DNA of 64,000 nucleotides from positions 248,001 through 312,000 of the forward strand of contig NZ_FMZO01000006.1 of the NCBI RefSeq assembly GCF_900101395.1, in the 5' to 3' direction. Below are positions 14,135-20,892 of the stretch, one piece after another; within the stretch, counting starts at the first letter, position 1; every line of letters starts with the position of its first letter. The position numbers and the translations under genes were made by a program. The notes under the pieces were generated by a model, which was not told the origin of the DNA, ran no database searches, and saw only the letters and a program-made list of their open reading frames with translations. The DNA comes from Niabella drilacis. Its GTDB lineage: Bacteria; Bacteroidota; Bacteroidia; Chitinophagales; Chitinophagaceae.

Positions 14135-14905
14135 TTACCGGTCCATCCATTTCTTAAAAAAGGGCGCTTTTTCCCTGCTGATGTCTATTTCAAGCTTCAG
14201 GGGGTGTTTCAGCTGAACCACCAGCTTTTGATTACCATGTGGCTTTACCGACTGTATAGAATAGATATTAATAATAGCCTGCCGGTTCGCCCGAAAAAAA
14301 ATGGCGGGATCCAGTACGTCCTCAATATCTTCCAATGCAGAAAAATCGTAAATAAACCGGTTGCCGTTAAAGGTATATACATAATTGAGGGTATCCTTAT
14401 AAAAAACAGCAATATCCTTTGTTTCAACCGGTGCCCATTTATTGCCGGAGTTGATCACAAAACGTTCTTTGTATTGATTCTTTGCCAAAGACGGGTTGGA
14501 AAAATACTGTACCAGCTGCTGCAGGTCGCCGGGAACAAAGCGTTGGCCGTCTTTCAGGTTCCGTACTTTATCAATGGCTTTTTTAAGATCCTCCTCCTGT
14601 ACGGGTTTTAACAGGTAGTCTATCCCATTCACCTTAAACGCCCGAATTGCATATTCTTCATACGCGGTACAAAAGATCACCGGGCAATGCAGGACAAACT
14701 GGTCAAAGAGTTCAAAACTCAGCCCATCGCTTAAGCGGATATCCATGAACAACAGATCGGGCTCTGCATGATTCATAAACCACTTACGTGCCGCCTTGAG
14801 GCTGGGCAACATTTCTATCACCTGCACATCGGGGGCAAGCGCGGCAATGTTTGCTTTCATCTCTTCCGCAATCAGGCTCTCATCTTCTACAATTACAGCG
14901 TTCAT
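14135..14905 (-). CDS. LytTR-family response regulator (partner of kinase 2)
   Basis: This 256-residue paralogue of the regulator at 12146 has a receiver domain with E7-D8, phospho-acceptor Asp55 (LFMDIRLSDG), FCTAYEE and LLKPVQEE. The LytTR domain begins near residue 150 (YVYTFNGNRFIYD, DPAIFFRANRQAIINIY). Its start overlaps the end of the kinase gene by 4 nt, the usual sign of translational coupling. The two regulators share most of the DNA-contacting half, so their target sites may be similar. Confidence 0.93.
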   Translation of the reverse strand: MNAVIVEDESLIAEEMKANIAALAPDVQVIEMLPSLKAARKWFMNHAEPDLLFMDIRLSDGLSFELFDQFVLHCPVIFCTAYEEYAIRAFKVNGIDYLLKPVQEEDLKKAIDKVRNLKDGQRFVPGDLQQLVQYFSNPSLAKNQYKERFVINSGNKWAPVETKDIAVFYKDTLNYVYTFNGNRFIYDFSALEDIEDVLDPAIFFRANRQAIINIYSIQSVKPHGNQKLVVQLKHPLKLEIDISREKAPFFKKWMDR

Positions 14906-17892
14906 AACAATGGGATTTTTACGATAAAATAATGACCCTCTTCAATAATCACAAGCGGCCTGTCGGAATAATAGCGGTACAGCGTTTGCATATTTGCCAG
15001 TCCTTTTTTATTACTTGTTTCAACAATACGGTAACGTTGCAGGTTATTGCTCACAATTACGCAATCATCGGCGGCAAAGATCCGGATCTGCAATGGGCTC
15101 TCCTTATCAGCCGTATTGTGCTTAATGGCATTTTCCACAAGGTTTTGCAGGGTAACCGGTACAATATAATTATTGAAGAACCGCTCTGGCACATCCATCA
15201 CAACATCCAGTCCCTCCCTGAAGCGGGTCTTTTGCAGTTCCACAAAGGTCTTAACAAACCCAAGCTCATCCCGGAGATACACCAGTTCCTGCTCATCGCT
15301 TTTTAAAACATAGCGGTATACCCGGCTCATTCCATCCAAAAATGAGGTAGCGGTTTTCGCATCGCTCTTGATCAGACTGCGCAGGGCCGTTAAGGAGTTG
15401 AACAGGAAATGGGGGTTCAGGTGCTGTTTTAAACTTTCATACTGTACCAGTGTTTTTTCCTTTTCCAGGGACGCTGTCTTTGTTTCAAGATTCAGGATCT
15501 GCCGCTGTTTATTCATCCGGAAACGATAGACCAAAAAAACAGCGGCTACCATCAGCAATACAGCAAGGATCCTGAACCAGGCCTTTTTATAAAAAATGGT
15601 CGCTACCTGTAACCGGAGCTGCTTTTCCCCGCCACGCCAGTTATTGATATTGGAAGAGGCCTTATACCGGAACGTATAGCTTCCCCCGGGCACGCTGCTA
15701 TAAACCGCCTTGGGATCCTGGGTATAATGCCAGTCCTTTTCAAGGCCATCCAGTTTATACGCATACCACAGCTGTGCACCAAAACTTACCGCTTCCAGTT
15801 CAACAGTAAAAAAGTTCTCCTCCTGCTTCAGGGAAATGATGCCACCACCATTGATGGCACCCATGGGTATATGGCGGTTGCCACTGATGCCAATATCCGC
15901 AATAAAACAATTGGTAACGCTGCTATCCTCTTTGTAGCGCAGGGGATCAAACTGCACATATCCCCTCCGGGAAGGCATAATAAATTCCCCGCTCCTTAAC
16001 TTAAATGCCGGGTGTTCTACAAAGTCGGTGATCTGCAATCCCGCACCGGCGCCTATCGGGGTAAAATAGCGTCTCGATTTTCCCAGCATCACCAGGCCCC
16101 CTGCGGTACCCAGCCATACCCGGTTACTATCGTCAACAGCAATGCTGCCCACAATATTACCAGGCAGGCCGTCCTTTACGGTATAAGACGTAAATTCATT
16201 TTTATCCGCATCAATACAACTAACCCCGCTAAATGTGGCTACCCATATTTTGCCATCCTTATCTTCATTGATGCTGATCACTACATCACCAATAACCGTG
16301 TTTGCCGTTTTATCAGTACTCTGCCATCGCCTTGTGGCGCCGGTCAAAGGATTATACACCGATAAGCCATCGCCATTATAACCAAACCAGATCCTTTTTT
16401 TACTATCCTCAAATACAAACCGCACGGTATATCCCTTATACCTTTTTAATACCGGGTGATGGGCAATGCTATGAAACTTTTTCTCCGCAGGCAGGTAATA
16501 ATAAAGCCCGTCATAGTCCCTTTCACCAAACCATACCGTACCATCGCTTGTTTTCCCGGCGCTAAAATAAAACGACTGCGGGATGGAGTCCTTTATGGTA
16601 AGAAAATCCATCCTGTCGTTTGCCCGGTTAAGACGATTGACACCGGCGCCTGTAGCCACCCATATATCATGATTGACATCTTCCACAACAGCACGAACAG
16701 AATTAAAATAAATCGCGTCCGGCATTCCCCGCCGGTTCCTCCACACCGTATATTTACCCGTTTGTACATTATACCTCGAAATGCCGTTGCCGGTCGTAAA
16801 CCAGAGATTGCCTTCGTGATCCTCCTCTATACCACGGGTAACCGCATGCGCGCCGGCACTGCCAAAGGGGTAACCAATCCTGAAGATATTTTTTTGCTGA
16901 TCAACATAATTTACCCCGACGTCAGATCCCAGCCAGACCCTCTTGTCCTTCCCTTTCCAGATGGAGAACAGCATATTGCTCAGCAGCGCATTTTTGGCAT
17001 CCGGGCTATATCGGTAATGCACCAGCTTTTTTTTCGGCGGATCATAACACAGCAAGGCATTCAAATTGGTGACCATCCAGATGGTATTATTTTCGTCTTC
17101 CGCAAATCCGTTTACAAGGCTCGGGGTATCATGTTGATCTTTCACCAGCAAATGATCCAGCACCTCCGTTTTATGGGTGTGCCCGTCAACCCGTAACAGC
17201 CGGAAATCCGCGTGATTGGCCAGCCACAGGTCCCCGGCAGCAGCTACCATTATTTTATTAACGGCTTTCCCCCTCAACTCTTTTACCTCGTGATAAACAG
17301 CCTTTCCGGATCTAATATTATACACAACATAGCAACCATCGCCGCCGATGTACAGCTCGTCTTCCTTTAAAAATGCGCTGTTGGCCTTTGTGGTTTTTAA
17401 TAATTGCCGCGAAGCCGCATCAGTGCTCAGCTCCTCAAACCGGTCGGCAGCCGGGTTATAGCAACGCAACCCCGATCTTGCCACCAGGTAGAGCCTGTTG
17501 GCGGCAACCGGCACAATGGTATTTACCTTCAGCCCTTCTGCTTTTTTTATTCTCCGGAATGCAAAAGAGCCGTAATCAAATTCCGCCGTCTCATTCCAAA
17601 AGCTGAACCAGAGCCGGCCATCCGGACCACAGGCAATGGCCTCGCAAAGCGAAGCAGGCGGCGAAGTGCTATCGGTACGGTCGTAGGTAAACCGTTTTAT
17701 AGTTTTACCGTTATAACGGTTCAATGCACCTGCAGATGCAAACCACATATAGCCATATTTATCCTGGCAGATAGCATGGATCCAGCCGTCGTTTAATCCT
17801 TCTGCGGTAGTAACCTGGTGAAACATGACCGGCGGCTGTGCAAACAGCCGCACATAAAGGAACAACAGAAAAATGACGACGCTTTTTTTCAT
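14902..17892 (-). CDS. Membrane histidine kinase with two periplasmic beta-propellers, Y_Y_Y domain and LytS-type kinase domain (pair 2)
   Basis: This 996-residue paralogue of the kinase at 9144 starts at the ATG at 17892 (signal peptide MKKSVVIFLLFLYVRLFAQ); the frame extends 2 codons upstream to a TTG. Reg_prop repeats (for example NRYNG, DEDKDGKIWVATFSGVSC, DDSNRVWLGTAGGLVML) fill about 620 residues. They are followed by a Y_Y_Y domain (WYAYKLDGLEKDW), one membrane helix and the kinase domain with His828 in KQHLNPHFLFNSL and N-box LQNLVENAIKHN. The glycine lid is again short (TSNKKGLANMQ). Kinase, regulator and lipoprotein here mirror the first set. Different propeller sequences suggest different ligands. 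Confidence 0.9.
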   Translation of the reverse strand: MKKSVVIFLLFLYVRLFAQPPVMFHQVTTAEGLNDGWIHAICQDKYGYMWFASAGALNRYNGKTIKRFTYDRTDSTSPPASLCEAIACGPDGRLWFSFWNETAEFDYGSFAFRRIKKAEGLKVNTIVPVAANRLYLVARSGLRCYNPAADRFEELSTDAASRQLLKTTKANSAFLKEDELYIGGDGCYVVYNIRSGKAVYHEVKELRGKAVNKIMVAAAGDLWLANHADFRLLRVDGHTHKTEVLDHLLVKDQHDTPSLVNGFAEDENNTIWMVTNLNALLCYDPPKKKLVHYRYSPDAKNALLSNMLFSIWKGKDKRVWLGSDVGVNYVDQQKNIFRIGYPFGSAGAHAVTRGIEEDHEGNLWFTTGNGISRYNVQTGKYTVWRNRRGMPDAIYFNSVRAVVEDVNHDIWVATGAGVNRLNRANDRMDFLTIKDSIPQSFYFSAGKTSDGTVWFGERDYDGLYYYLPAEKKFHSIAHHPVLKRYKGYTVRFVFEDSKKRIWFGYNGDGLSVYNPLTGATRRWQSTDKTANTVIGDVVISINEDKDGKIWVATFSGVSCIDADKNEFTSYTVKDGLPGNIVGSIAVDDSNRVWLGTAGGLVMLGKSRRYFTPIGAGAGLQITDFVEHPAFKLRSGEFIMPSRRGYVQFDPLRYKEDSSVTNCFIADIGISGNRHIPMGAINGGGIISLKQEENFFTVELEAVSFGAQLWYAYKLDGLEKDWHYTQDPKAVYSSVPGGSYTFRYKASSNINNWRGGEKQLRLQVATIFYKKAWFRILAVLLMVAAVFLVYRFRMNKQRQILNLETKTASLEKEKTLVQYESLKQHLNPHFLFNSLTALRSLIKSDAKTATSFLDGMSRVYRYVLKSDEQELVYLRDELGFVKTFVELQKTRFREGLDVVMDVPERFFNNYIVPVTLQNLVENAIKHNTADKESPLQIRIFAADDCVIVSNNLQRYRIVETSNKKGLANMQTLYRYYSDRPLVIIEEGHYFIVKIPLL

Positions 17893-18151
17893 CAGCAATC
17901 AAAATAATACCTGTTAACGTCAATACCCAAAAGCCATAAAGCCAAACTGATACTTTTTAGCCCAAAAAGGATAAAATACGGGGTGAAGTGCATCTCCGGT
18001 CTTTTGCCGGATCGCAAATTGCAGTTTCGTTCCCATAAAGCAGTTATGTTCAGACCGGCTATGCAACCAAAGAACCGTTCCGCCACCCGCCAGGCTGCAA
18101 CCACCCGGCAGTTCCAACACGACGCTGATGATCATCCGGCAGCGCGGGGGA

Positions 18152-18337
18152 TCACATGCCGCTGCACATCGAAAAACCGATCAACCCTGATAAAGCCAAT
18201 ATAATAAGTCCGATGAGCACGGTTTTTCGCCCCGGCACCGCCGCTTTATTACCAAAAAGCTGAATGACCCCGATAAGTATCAGCAGCAGCCCCACGATAG
18301 GTCCTCCTATGAGTAAAAATAAGCCCAGTTCTTCCAT
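18152..18337 (-). CDS. Tiny two-helix membrane protein (copy 2)
   Basis: This is a 61-residue protein with two hydrophobic helices (about 5-28 and 41-58) joined by a short basic loop (GNKAAVPGRKT). It is clearly paralogous to the gene at 18501: both begin M-x-ELGLFL, share GGPIVG/AGPIVG, I-Q-L-F-G-N and GRK, and end with GFS-x-CS. That conservation supports it as a real gene despite its size. It lies 163 nt downstream of copy 1 in the leftward cluster with the radical SAM and Lgt-like genes. The family is not one I recognise. Confidence 0.65.
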   Translation of the reverse strand: MEELGLFLLIGGPIVGLLLILIGVIQLFGNKAAVPGRKTVLIGLIILALSGLIGFSMCSGM

Positions 18338-18500
18338 CCTGTTTTTTTAACGTTTCATAATAAGCCGGTATACCTTCTATCAAAACAGCGGCTCAACGGC
18401 CAGTATCCGCAGCGGCTGTACGTTTATAAAAATAATTTCAATATTGGTTCATTATAAGAAACCATTGCCCAAAACCCACCGGAACAGCCCCGAAATCCGG

Positions 18501-18707
18501 TTAATGAAATCCTCCGGACGGCGCTATGGAGCAAATAGAAAAACCAACCAGCACCGAAGCCACGATAGTGATAAGGCCAATAAGCGCTTTCTTTCGCCCC
18601 TGCGTTGCCGACTCAGCATTTCCAAAAAGCTGGATAATGCCCACCAGCAAAATAATACCTCCGACAATGGGCCCTGCAATGATTAAAAACAAACCCAGTT
18701 CTGCCAT
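18501..18707 (-). CDS. Tiny two-helix membrane protein (copy 1)
   Basis: This is a 68-residue protein (69 if the adjacent ATG at 18710 is used). Two hydrophobic helices (about 4-28 and 42-60) flank a loop GNAESATQGRKK, with a small tail IAPSGGFH. It is a paralogue of the gene at 18152. The start lies only 24 nt after the stop of the radical SAM gene on the same strand, which suggests co-transcription with the Lgt-like and radical SAM genes. A role as a membrane partner or lipid-handling subunit is speculation. Confidence 0.7.
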   Translation of the reverse strand: MAELGLFLIIAGPIVGGIILLVGIIQLFGNAESATQGRKKALIGLITIVASVLVGFSICSIAPSGGFH

Positions 18708-18731
18708 CATTATTTCCAGCTATTTAATGGG

Positions 18732-20138
18732 TTAAAGAATTATTGCCTCCATCTTTTCCTGTAATTGCTTTACATATGTTTCCTTCTCATCCCGGTAAAA
18801 TAAATTCATGGTCTCAAAAGGGATCAGGCGGCCGTCCTTATGTACAATGTGCACACAGCTTTTTTTGATCGCCCGCACATCAAAATCATAAGCATCAATA
18901 AACCGCATAATGATGATCCGGAACAGGTTGTTATACGTAAGACCCGGGGCCTGTATTTGCGGCAGGCAGCACAAAAGCTGGTTCATATTCTCCTCCACCC
19001 GGTCAACAGAGATGCCGGTACTGAAGATATCGATCATCTTTTCCTTCAGGGCATCATCCTGCTCATAAATGATCGTGTTCTTTGAGTTATCCAGCAGCTG
19101 CGCCGGATCAATATAACGGGTCAGCGGGAATACCTGGTTATTGAGCTTCAAAGCATACCCCATCACCAGCGCATCCGGGTTACAGGGCACCGGTATGAGG
19201 TCATTGGCATTAAATACCCTGGTCTGGTCCAGGATCTTTTGCCGCACGTCGGTCATCGTAATGCGGTTAATGGCCGGATCAAAGTTTTCCGTACGGCCGG
19301 CGATCTGCACCGGTTGAAAAGTAACGCCCCGCACACAGGGTTGTTTGAGCGCATAATCAATGATGGCGCCAATCTCATCATCATTGACCCCTTGTTGCAG
19401 GGTTACCACCAGGGTTGTGGAAAGATTCAGTTCATTCAAATGTTCCAGGGCCTTTATCCGTACATCCAGCAGGTCTTTTCCCCGCAGGTGGATCAGGGCC
19501 TCCGGTTTAAACGAATCAAACTGCAGGTAGATCTCAAAATCCGGCATATAGGTGGCCAGCCGTTTTGCAAACTCCTTATCTTTTGCGATCCGGATGCCGT
19601 TGGTATTCACCATTAAGTGCTTAATGGGCTTTGTTTTGGCGATGTCCAGTATCTCAAAAAAATCCGGGTGTAATGTGGGCTCTCCCCCGCTGATCTGCAC
19701 CACATCCGGCGTACCCTCATTGGCAACGACAACATCCAGCATCCGCTCTACCTCTTCAACCGTACGGTGACGTCCATAATGCGGACTGCTCATAGCATAA
19801 CAGGTAGGACAGGTCAGATTACAGCGATCTGTAATTTCAACCACCGTTAAACAACTATGTTGCTCATGATCGGTGCAAAGCCCGCAGTCGTAGGGGCAGC
19901 CATAATGCGTTTTGGTATTGAATTGCAGCGGCGTTTCGGATGGTTTATTATAGTTGCGGATGTTTTTATAATATTCCACATCGGTGGCGATCAGTACTTT
20001 TTCAAACCCGTGTTCCGCACAGTTCTTGAGCATGTATACCCTGCCATTCTCAAATACGATCTTGGCATCCACCCTTTTCAGACAGGTGCTGCAAAGACTG
20101 ATGGTGAAATCATAATAGGTGTAGGGACGAACCGGCAT
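18732..20138 (-). CDS. Radical SAM enzyme of the MJ0619/tetraether lipid synthase (Tes) type
   Basis: The 468-residue cytoplasmic iron-sulfur enzyme has an N-terminal rubredoxin-like metal site (C16-x2-C19, C40-x2-H43). A Cys-rich block GCPYDCGLCTDH follows (Cys81, 85, 88), then the radical SAM motif C106-x3-C110-x2-C113 in ITDRCNLTCPTCYAM, the SAM-binding ISGGEPTLHPDF, and C-terminal Cys residues in QLLCCLPQ. This arrangement is that of the family containing archaeal Tes, which couples lipid chains, and the MJ0619 pterin methyltransferase. Which reaction it catalyses here is unknown. Its start overlaps the Lgt-like gene by 29 nt, so lipid chemistry is favoured by context. There is no sign of MoaA-type C-terminal clusters. 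Confidence 0.85.
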   Translation of the reverse strand: MPVRPYTYYDFTISLCSTCLKRVDAKIVFENGRVYMLKNCAEHGFEKVLIATDVEYYKNIRNYNKPSETPLQFNTKTHYGCPYDCGLCTDHEQHSCLTVVEITDRCNLTCPTCYAMSSPHYGRHRTVEEVERMLDVVVANEGTPDVVQISGGEPTLHPDFFEILDIAKTKPIKHLMVNTNGIRIAKDKEFAKRLATYMPDFEIYLQFDSFKPEALIHLRGKDLLDVRIKALEHLNELNLSTTLVVTLQQGVNDDEIGAIIDYALKQPCVRGVTFQPVQIAGRTENFDPAINRITMTDVRQKILDQTRVFNANDLIPVPCNPDALVMGYALKLNNQVFPLTRYIDPAQLLDNSKNTIIYEQDDALKEKMIDIFSTGISVDRVEENMNQLLCCLPQIQAPGLTYNNLFRIIIMRFIDAYDFDVRAIKKSCVHIVHKDGRLIPFETMNLFYRDEKETYVKQLQEKMEAIIL

Positions 20139-20892
20139 GATGGATCAGTAATTTTTTGGGTTGAACGATATATCGAATGTAGTATAATAATCCGAGTAAG
20201 CAAGCTATTTGTATAGACGACAATCCTACAGGCCAGGTATAATGTGGTTTTATAAAATCCAGCAGAAAGCGGAACAGCAGGTATCCGATCATAAAGATCT
20301 TAAAAAGTGCGCCACTGGCTACAGGAAACCGCAGCGAGGTCCGCCGGATCACCAGGGCCAGCAAAAGCAGGAAGATGATTTCGTACAGCGCCACGGGATG
20401 CCGCAATAAACCATCTCCCAGGTTCATGCCGGTAAAGCAGTCCGTTGGCAGCCCGTAAGTTTCCTCGTACACACCCATGCTGAAACATCCGATCCTGCCA
20501 ATGATCAGCCCCAGGATAATGGGATACGTGTAAAGATCACCACTGCGCTGTTTTTCGCCAATAAGTTTTTTCATTCCTTCCACGCCGGCCAGCCCACCTA
20601 AAAATCCGCCCACAACGGTTTTATTCATATAAAAATACCGCAGCGGTGCAGCGCTTGCAGCAAGCGCTGCCGGGTCCTCCAGGCCGCCCAGGATCCTTGA
20701 ACCCAGCAAGGCGCCAAAAGTAGCACCCAGGAGGATATAAAGCCTGTTCATCCCGGGAATGCGATCCCCCTGTTTCCGTTTCAGGTACAGGTAAAACCGG
20801 AAAGCGATAAAAAAACTGGCAATTTCTGTTACCATATGTAACAGGATCCTGTGCGCTCCAAAATGCAGGTATACCGGAAATTCCAGACTCAT
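20110..20892 (-). CDS. Divergent prolipoprotein diacylglyceryl transferase (Lgt) family membrane protein
   Basis: This 260-residue multi-pass inner-membrane protein resembles Lgt, which moves a diacylglyceryl group from phosphatidylglycerol to a lipoprotein Cys. Recognisable are GRIGCFSMG (132-140; Lgt normally G-R-x-G-N-F), RHPVALYE (164-171) and YLLFRFLLDF with Arg208, matching the conserved Arg of the C-terminal periplasmic helix. The stretch KTVVGGFLGG (91-100) replaces the usual F-H-G-G, so the conserved His is missing, and Asn of G-N-F is Cys. It is therefore probably not the housekeeping Lgt. The gene overlaps the radical SAM gene by 29 nt. Confidence 0.8.
   Translation of the reverse strand: MSLEFPVYLHFGAHRILLHMVTEIASFFIAFRFYLYLKRKQGDRIPGMNRLYILLGATFGALLGSRILGGLEDPAALAASAAPLRYFYMNKTVVGGFLGGLAGVEGMKKLIGEKQRSGDLYTYPIILGLIIGRIGCFSMGVYEETYGLPTDCFTGMNLGDGLLRHPVALYEIIFLLLLALVIRRTSLRFPVASGALFKIFMIGYLLFRFLLDFIKPHYTWPVGLSSIQIACLLGLLYYIRYIVQPKKLLIHHAGSSLHLL

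Follow-up and report, generated by a model that had tools for sequence, protein, structure and literature searches.

The question raised by this locus is what an Lgt-like membrane protein, a radical S-adenosylmethionine (SAM) protein related to tetraether synthase (Tes), and two tiny membrane proteins may be doing together. Their genes lie between 18152 and 20892 on the minus strand of a stretch of 64,000 nucleotides (nt) from Niabella drilacis (contig NZ_FMZO01000006.1, positions 248,001 to 312,000), which is referred to here as the window. The four leftward open reading frames (ORFs) given in the preliminary description of this DNA were all found where it had placed them, as was the overlap of 29 nt (20110-20138) between the Lgt-like and radical SAM ORFs. 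In the present study, these genes were found to form a conserved three-part module that is patchily distributed and partly plasmid-borne, a conclusion of which we are close to certain. The preliminary description, which had suggested an uncharacterized lipid or lipoprotein modification unit, holds good as far as a genetic module is concerned, with a conserved gene pair in two phyla and a housekeeping Lgt elsewhere, but not in its argument from the residues of a divergent Lgt. The simplest account using all three parts is a module dedicated to the lipidation or other modification of small membrane proteins, to which we assign a probability of approximately 40%; the confidence expressed below in the module, the substrate role, and lipidation is likewise a judgement and not a computed value.

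The distribution of the module was examined in 395 genomes of the phylum, including that of the window (6.1 Mb, 45 contigs, completeness 100), and in 98 genomes of its family; G numbers denote individual genomes of the phylum and L numbers the individual loci or sequences compared. The radical SAM query matched in 14 of the 98 family genomes and in 34 of the 395, where 28 matches were close (at least 61%), three were at 39-41%, one (G189) was of the mycobacterial type, and two (G160 and G389) were Tes-like. The two Tes-like genomes, which had no Lgt-like gene within the 11.5 kb read and one of which (G160) has a weak Lgt-like match elsewhere (E 7e-4), were subtracted to give 32 genomes with a module-type radical SAM gene. 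At a threshold of 1e-12, the Lgt-like query also matched 32 of the 395 genomes, namely, 31 of the 32 module carriers and G031; the Lgt-like gene of G189, missed at this threshold, adjoins the radical SAM gene, so that all 32 carry the partner, which is present in one (G031) of the other 363. This co-occurrence corresponds to a Fisher p of 2.6e-46, uncorrected for relatedness. Four of the 32 pairs are unlinked, with three (G063, G128, and G361) on different contigs and one (G055) approximately 22 kb apart. All 14 radical SAM carriers of the family set had a weak second PF01790 match, which was adjacent in 12 (not in G063 or G055). The pair and its order, which might have been confined to this strain, recur in other genomes.

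A contig search with the radical SAM query confirmed 364 stretches, the best 80 of which were used in analyses of the locus. By title, these 80 are all from Bacteroidota, and their radical SAM proteins are 73-95% identical to that of the window, with the nearest named relatives coming from two Niabella records (95 and 94% identity). The Lgt-like gene is present in 74 of the 80 loci by profile (72 by clustering), always on the strand of the radical SAM gene; the two overlap in 54 loci, and overlap or lie no more than 100 nt apart in 68. Six loci lack it, in two of which (L035 and L094) the radical SAM gene is approximately 300 nt from the contig end. A constant fourth gene was also sought in the 80 loci, and beyond the radical SAM, Lgt-like, and small genes, no cluster occurred in more than 25; the commoner neighbor clusters were at variable distances, mostly on the opposite strand, or confined to a few related genera.

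Phyla other than that of the window were sampled through plasmid records alone, and these searches located the module on Mycobacterium and Nonomuraea replicons. The Lgt-like gene, two small genes, and the radical SAM gene stand in a row in M. branderi (L099) and in the same order on an M. avium plasmid (L102), while the order in Nonomuraea (L143) is small-protein gene, Lgt-like gene, and radical SAM gene; the radical SAM proteins of these three loci are only approximately 30-37% identical to that of the window. The three parts are also present in four distant genomes of the window's own phylum, again in other gene orders; in L131-L133 of this phylum, the radical SAM gene is followed by another gene, the Lgt-like gene, and the small gene. 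The persistence of the three parts through reordering and strong divergence points to their joint selection. The 11-13 kb read around radical SAM relatives with a methyltransferase neighbor (L098 and L101) contained no Lgt-like gene.

Several features surrounding these loci were recorded in passing. The M. avium module plasmid is predicted to be mobilizable, and a transposase gene lies directly after the module in L099 and a few genes off in L102. The gene between the radical SAM and Lgt-like genes at L132:4784-5377 encodes an isoprenylcysteine carboxyl methyltransferase (ICMT)/PEMT family protein (PF04140, 49.9 bits), and the same interval contains a DUF4395 protein gene in L133 and an ORF with a similar C terminus in L131. 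ICMT enzymes act on lipidated cysteines, and the ICMT-family gene of L132, a single case, may represent a further modification step.

Regarding the small proteins, the preliminary description correctly reported two that are paralogous (61% identity), but treated them as bystanders and overlooked a conserved cysteine near their C-terminal ends. The first (18501-18710, minus strand) is a two-helix protein of 69 amino acids (aa) ending in LVGFSICSIAPSGGFH, with a proposed modification site at Cys60 (codon 18531-18533), and the second (18152-18337, minus strand) is a two-helix protein of 61 aa ending in LIGFSMCSGM, with a proposed site at Cys58 (codon 18164-18166); both are candidate substrates. 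A search of this genome for further two-helix copies yielded none beyond this pair (E 2.6e-18 and 9.0e-18; next, 0.24). In the loci compared, one to several small ORFs of approximately 53-125 aa with two to three predicted helices follow the radical SAM gene or lie beside the Lgt-like gene, and some actinobacterial versions have longer, Pro-rich N termini. Outside close kin, they share little sequence save for the C-terminal end, which reads G-F-S-x-C in the window's clade and G-L-G-x-C, S-F-T-L-C, F-G-[AS]-C, G-P-G-[SA]-C, S-G-G-[LM]-C, or [AV]-G-x-C-T-G-[LI]-N-P elsewhere. The only invariant columns in a 17-row alignment of two-helix proteins are G24, L54, and C60.

A strict form of this Cys motif, located within the 32 C-terminal residues of small ORFs within 1.6 kb of the radical SAM gene, was present in 66 of the 78 usable loci (two of the 80 were dropped because the flank was too short). 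Of the 167 remaining small ORFs of these loci that have two or more hydrophobic spans, 5 contained it; the control ORFs for this and the looser rule below include non-coding frames. Shuffling the 40 C-terminal residues in 100 distinct positives produced it in 1034 of 20000 draws. Among the 12 loci that failed the strict pattern, 11 have a related ending by eye and one (L061) has none within 1.6 kb. Lys and Arg occur at 2.5 per 15 residues before the last helix and at 0.37 after the Cys in 125 rows, at least five of which are spurious by eye (L050 1030, L053 475, L060 6161, L082 7638, and L129 2939); because of this bias, the positive-inside rule predicts that the Cys is on the outer (periplasmic) face. 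The tail after the Cys has a median of 7 residues. The small proteins, including the first of the two in the window, also often end in His (typically F-H or M-H), in 22 of 120 distinct proteins versus 22 of 727 background proteins, uncorrected for relatedness. On balance, we consider the small proteins to be probable substrates of the module.

The Lgt-like protein (260 aa; 20110-20892, minus strand) was characterized using PF01790, a residue table, invariant columns, and an AlphaFold2 model. Its earlier assignment to the Lgt family is borne out by a PF01790 LGT score of 59.7 bits, above the gathering cut-off of 24.9, while its score with the NCBIfam lgt equivalog TIGR00544 was 28.5 bits, under the cut-off of 118.9. 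The AlphaFold2 model, built from a 17-row alignment (predicted local distance difference test [pLDDT] 87.7), had a sole PDB match at E<=0.001, E. coli Lgt 5azb (Foldseek E 6.5e-7, TM 0.58/0.54). A role as the housekeeping Lgt, which would have been conceivable if no standard Lgt existed elsewhere in the genome, was ruled out by a housekeeping-type Lgt on another contig (C29), which scored 137.2 bits versus 59.6 for the window gene.

In the window protein, His19, Val94, Arg133, Cys136, Glu171, Tyr204, and Arg208 correspond to E. coli Tyr26, His103, Arg143, Asn146, Glu202, Tyr235, and Arg239, respectively. Using E. coli numbering, we compared 112 distinct module proteins with 26 distinct housekeeping-type Lgt, all 26 from the window's family; the counts exclude non-module family Lgt rows (L147, L148, L153, L155, L177, L178, L180, L183, and L184), actinobacterial plasmid Lgt (L144-L146), E. 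coli Lgt (L176), duplicates (W and L002), and cut pieces (L129 and L130), and invariant columns were charted across 30 sequences from two phyla. R143, G154, E202, Y235, and R239 are kept in all 112 module proteins, which also carry E/D at position 243 and K/R at position 246. Position 26 is His in 107 (Tyr in 3, gap in 2) versus Phe in all 26 housekeeping-type proteins, and position 235 is Tyr versus Asn in 25 and Ala in 1. At position 103, the module proteins have V (70), L (23), M (14), I (2), A (2), or T (1), while the housekeeping-type proteins uniformly have Tyr. The missing His and the Cys in place of Asn, on which the preliminary description had relied, were thus read correctly, but are not special to this protein: Cys146 is common to both groups, and the loss of His103 and the change from Asn146 to Cys were rejected as marks of a divergent Lgt because both are shared by every one of the 26 housekeeping-type Lgt compared. 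The non-module rows L147 and L148 have His103 and Asn146. Since three paralogues of the family outside the module (L153, L155, and L183) likewise have Leu103, sequence comparisons indicate that His26 is the more specific difference and that an aliphatic residue at 103 is usual, not exclusive. These three are short or second Lgt paralogues, and the genomes of L153 and L155 (G069 and G052) have no radical SAM match; they possibly represent another Lgt subtype with its own substrates.

The literature on Lgt gives these positions a functional context. According to the excerpt of PMC4728403, R143 and R239 are tied to catalysis, the HGGL region is proposed to bind the peptide, none of the tested substitutions of E. 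coli His103 (H103A/N/Q/R/Y) complemented, and the enzyme is thought to work on the periplasmic face, while the part of PMC13251419 that we consulted links the selection of protein substrates to arm-2, His103, and the head domain. The tested residues of the donor site are all retained, and the differing positions fall where these excerpts place acceptor recognition (PMC4728403; PMC13251419).

The radical SAM protein (468 aa; 18732-20138, minus strand) contains PF04055 and a PF23545 zinc ribbon, has no predicted membrane spans, and is better conserved than the other parts of the module. With the solved structure of tetraether synthase, 7TOL, it gives a match at E 2.2e-68, and a profile of 28 relatives aligns with tetraether synthase over the whole length (453.8 bits). 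All three Tes motifs, rubredoxin CX2CX20CX2H, N-terminal cluster CX3CX2C, and radical-SAM CX3CX2C, are present, at C16-x2-C19-x20-C40-x2-H43, C81-x3-C85-x2-C88, and C106-x3-C110-x2-C113, respectively, the first with the spacing given for Tes in the excerpt of PMC9433317 (C9X2C12X20C33X2H36). The full Cys layout claimed previously therefore applies to the rubredoxin-like site and the two C-x3-C-x2-C blocks, but not to the C-terminal set: 7TOL has C-C..P-F-C, the three Cys of which we infer to be cluster ligands, and the window protein has S-C..P-F-E, with only C428 of the three left. C319, C390, and C391 are invariant in 13 close relatives aligned. The window clade has S-C..P-F-E, whereas the actinobacterial clade keeps C-C..P-F-C and lacks the N-cluster Cys; because these sets vary between clades, the chemistry of the enzyme may differ from that of Tes.

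Among NCBIfam profiles, the protein scored best with TrsS (NF045646; 329.4 bits, cut-off 490), and it scored 292.1 bits with Tes (NF045702; cut-off 450), and these curated cut-offs rule it out as Tes or TrsS proper. The label of a Tes-family protein is accordingly apt for a relative and not for Tes itself, and with TrsS and Tes as the best scores, it does not group with unrelated methyltransferases, an outcome that had been envisaged. The TrsS cut-off was reached in none of the 395 genomes. In a tree, 24 module radical SAM proteins fell on one side and two Tes-type and two methyltransferase-linked proteins on the other, with a branch support of 73/83; at this support, a single origin of the module proteins is not shown by the tree, in which long branches meet at that point. 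The predicted structure was poor (pLDDT 52.0) and was set aside. Separately, two other proteins of the phylum, in two genomes (L135 and L136), scored 493.8 and 441.9 bits with the Tes profile (cut-off 450); no Lgt-like gene was found in the stretch read around them, and these genomes are possible makers of membrane-spanning lipids.

We propose that these parts act together as follows. The tiny proteins of two to three helices would be the substrates, with the last helix starting at a cytoplasmic loop rich in K/R, crossing to the periplasmic face, and ending in the near-invariant Cys and a short tail, a geometry that would amount to a lipoprotein signal segment moved to the C-terminal end of the protein. 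The Lgt-like enzyme, with donor-site residues kept and putative acceptor-recognition positions changed, would place a (diacyl)glyceryl group from phosphatidylglycerol on that Cys; we consider this thio-glyceryl lipidation to be plausible, at slightly less than an even chance. The Tes-like radical SAM protein, working from the cytoplasmic side, would then introduce a further modification, most probably in an acyl chain (C-C or C-S bond) and less probably in the peptide, and our confidence in any defined role for it is lower still than that in lipidation. Whether this constitutes a new class of modification, in which an Lgt paralogue lipidates a C-terminal transmembrane Cys and a Tes-like radical SAM enzyme joins or changes the lipid tail, is doubtful, and we view its conceivable products, either short lipopeptides or unusual lipids that are anchored to proteins and possibly span the membrane, with the same reserve.

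Several observations weigh against a dedicated lipidation module. In L007, L010, and L138, from which the Lgt-like gene has moved away, the small gene is still found with the radical SAM gene, and for this reason the radical SAM protein may be its true partner. The Lgt-like gene of G031 (L177:2153-2998), with Gln at position 26, belongs to a genome without a radical SAM match, and no small motif protein was found in the 5 kb read around it; a relic or a different use is possible. A looser helix-plus-Cys rule separates less well than the strict motif (95 of 119 distinct loci versus 30 of 238 control ORFs). Among its 24 failures, the motif was seen by eye in 18, three (L090, L092, and L123) end at a contig end, L130 has it in the longer stretch L132, L061 has it 4.6 kb downstream, and only L112 (G128) has none; G128 is without a motif protein adjoining either the radical SAM or the Lgt-like gene, including in the longer stretch L140. 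The lipobox rule, [LVI][ASTVI][GAS]C, requires G, A, or S before the Cys of an N-terminal segment, whereas the Cys of the small proteins is C-terminal and mostly preceded by I, V, T, or L. Moreover, position 103, at which no tested replacement of the E. coli His complemented, is aliphatic here, and since Leu103 occurs outside the module (L153, L155, and L183), such a residue does not reliably point to a new acceptor.

A different division of labor, which we regard as somewhat unlikely, is that the pair makes an unusual free lipid, such as a tail-joined or otherwise changed glycerolipid, with the Lgt-like enzyme moving glyceryl or diacylglyceryl to a lipid acceptor, the radical SAM protein altering the chains, and the small proteins serving as accessory subunits or lipid-binding helpers. 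The relationship to tetraether synthase, the structure of which holds lipid chains in a hydrophobic pocket according to the excerpt of PMC9433317, is in keeping with this idea, as are the phospholipid donor site kept in the Lgt-like enzyme and the stronger conservation of the radical SAM protein than of the remaining parts; however, a helper subunit is not expected to occur as one to several divergent tandem copies with a fixed C-terminal Cys, and the C-C..P-F-C of Tes is not retained in the window clade. The tandem copies themselves recall ribosomally synthesized and post-translationally modified peptides (RiPPs): the radical SAM gene is followed, no more than 1.6 kb away, by small ORFs that diverge in sequence, often occur in several copies, and have a constant Cys, short tails, and an excess of terminal His, and the small proteins might be precursor peptides modified at or near the Cys (thioether or C-C bond), with the Lgt-like enzyme acting later, or anchoring or releasing the product, and proteolysis perhaps freeing a short C-terminal lipopeptide. 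We consider this to be quite improbable because the conserved part is a membrane helix and not a leader, the best radical SAM scores are with TrsS and Tes, and no further gene recurs across clades (recognition domains, transporters, and proteases were not specifically sought among the neighbors). Multi-cluster radical SAM enzymes need electrons, and the small gene does stay with the radical SAM gene after the Lgt-like gene has moved, but it is very unlikely that the Cys is a redox or metal ligand in proteins that anchor or feed electrons to the radical SAM protein beside a non-transferring Lgt-like scaffold, given that the periplasmic location predicted for the Cys separates it from a radical SAM protein with no predicted membrane spans, and that tested catalytic residues are kept in all 112 Lgt-like proteins, which would not be expected of a scaffold.

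Downstream of the module in the window (14135-17898) is an apparent regulatory pair of ordinary appearance, which we take to be a 998-aa sensor-like protein and a 256-aa LytTR-type response regulator. Among the papers listed by our literature searches, no title or opening of an abstract dealt with the combination of an Lgt-like protein, a radical SAM protein, and small proteins, which is weak evidence of absence. The main known route of bacterial lipidation for exported proteins is the action of Lgt on an N-terminal lipobox, and if a dedicated lipidation module is confirmed, this picture would be widened by a further Lgt, found in two phyla and on plasmids, that has candidate substrates of its own and is partnered by a radical SAM protein of the lipid type. 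At their size, these candidate substrates are amenable to direct mass spectrometry. Bacterial Tes homologs of unknown product are numerous, with 456 counted in the excerpt of PMC8941075, and a testable function would also be provided for some of their relatives.

In comparison with known systems, the module protein resembles Lgt (PF01790; E. coli 5AZB) in its fold and in R143, G154, E202, Y235, and R239, and differs from housekeeping Lgt in having His at the position of Tyr26 and an aliphatic or small residue at that of His103, and in coexisting with a housekeeping Lgt. A second Lgt homolog of M. smegmatis, MSMEG_5408, is reported in the excerpt of PMC13251419 to carry Y26H and N146C, as do most module proteins. 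The radical SAM protein is similar to Tes/GDGT-MAS (NF045702; 7TOL) over its whole length and in the spacing of the rubredoxin, N-cluster, and radical-SAM motifs, but falls under the cut-off, has a reduced C-terminal Cys set in the window, and keeps different genomic partners, while the TrsS radical SAM (seleno)protein (NF045646) is the best-scoring family for it, still below the cut-off. Similar to a lipoprotein signal peptide, the C-terminal segment of the small proteins has a K/R-rich inner side, one hydrophobic span, and a Cys predicted at the outer face; unlike a signal peptide, it forms the C-terminal part of a protein with several helices, has a bulky residue at -1 in most cases, and is followed by almost no mature protein after the Cys.

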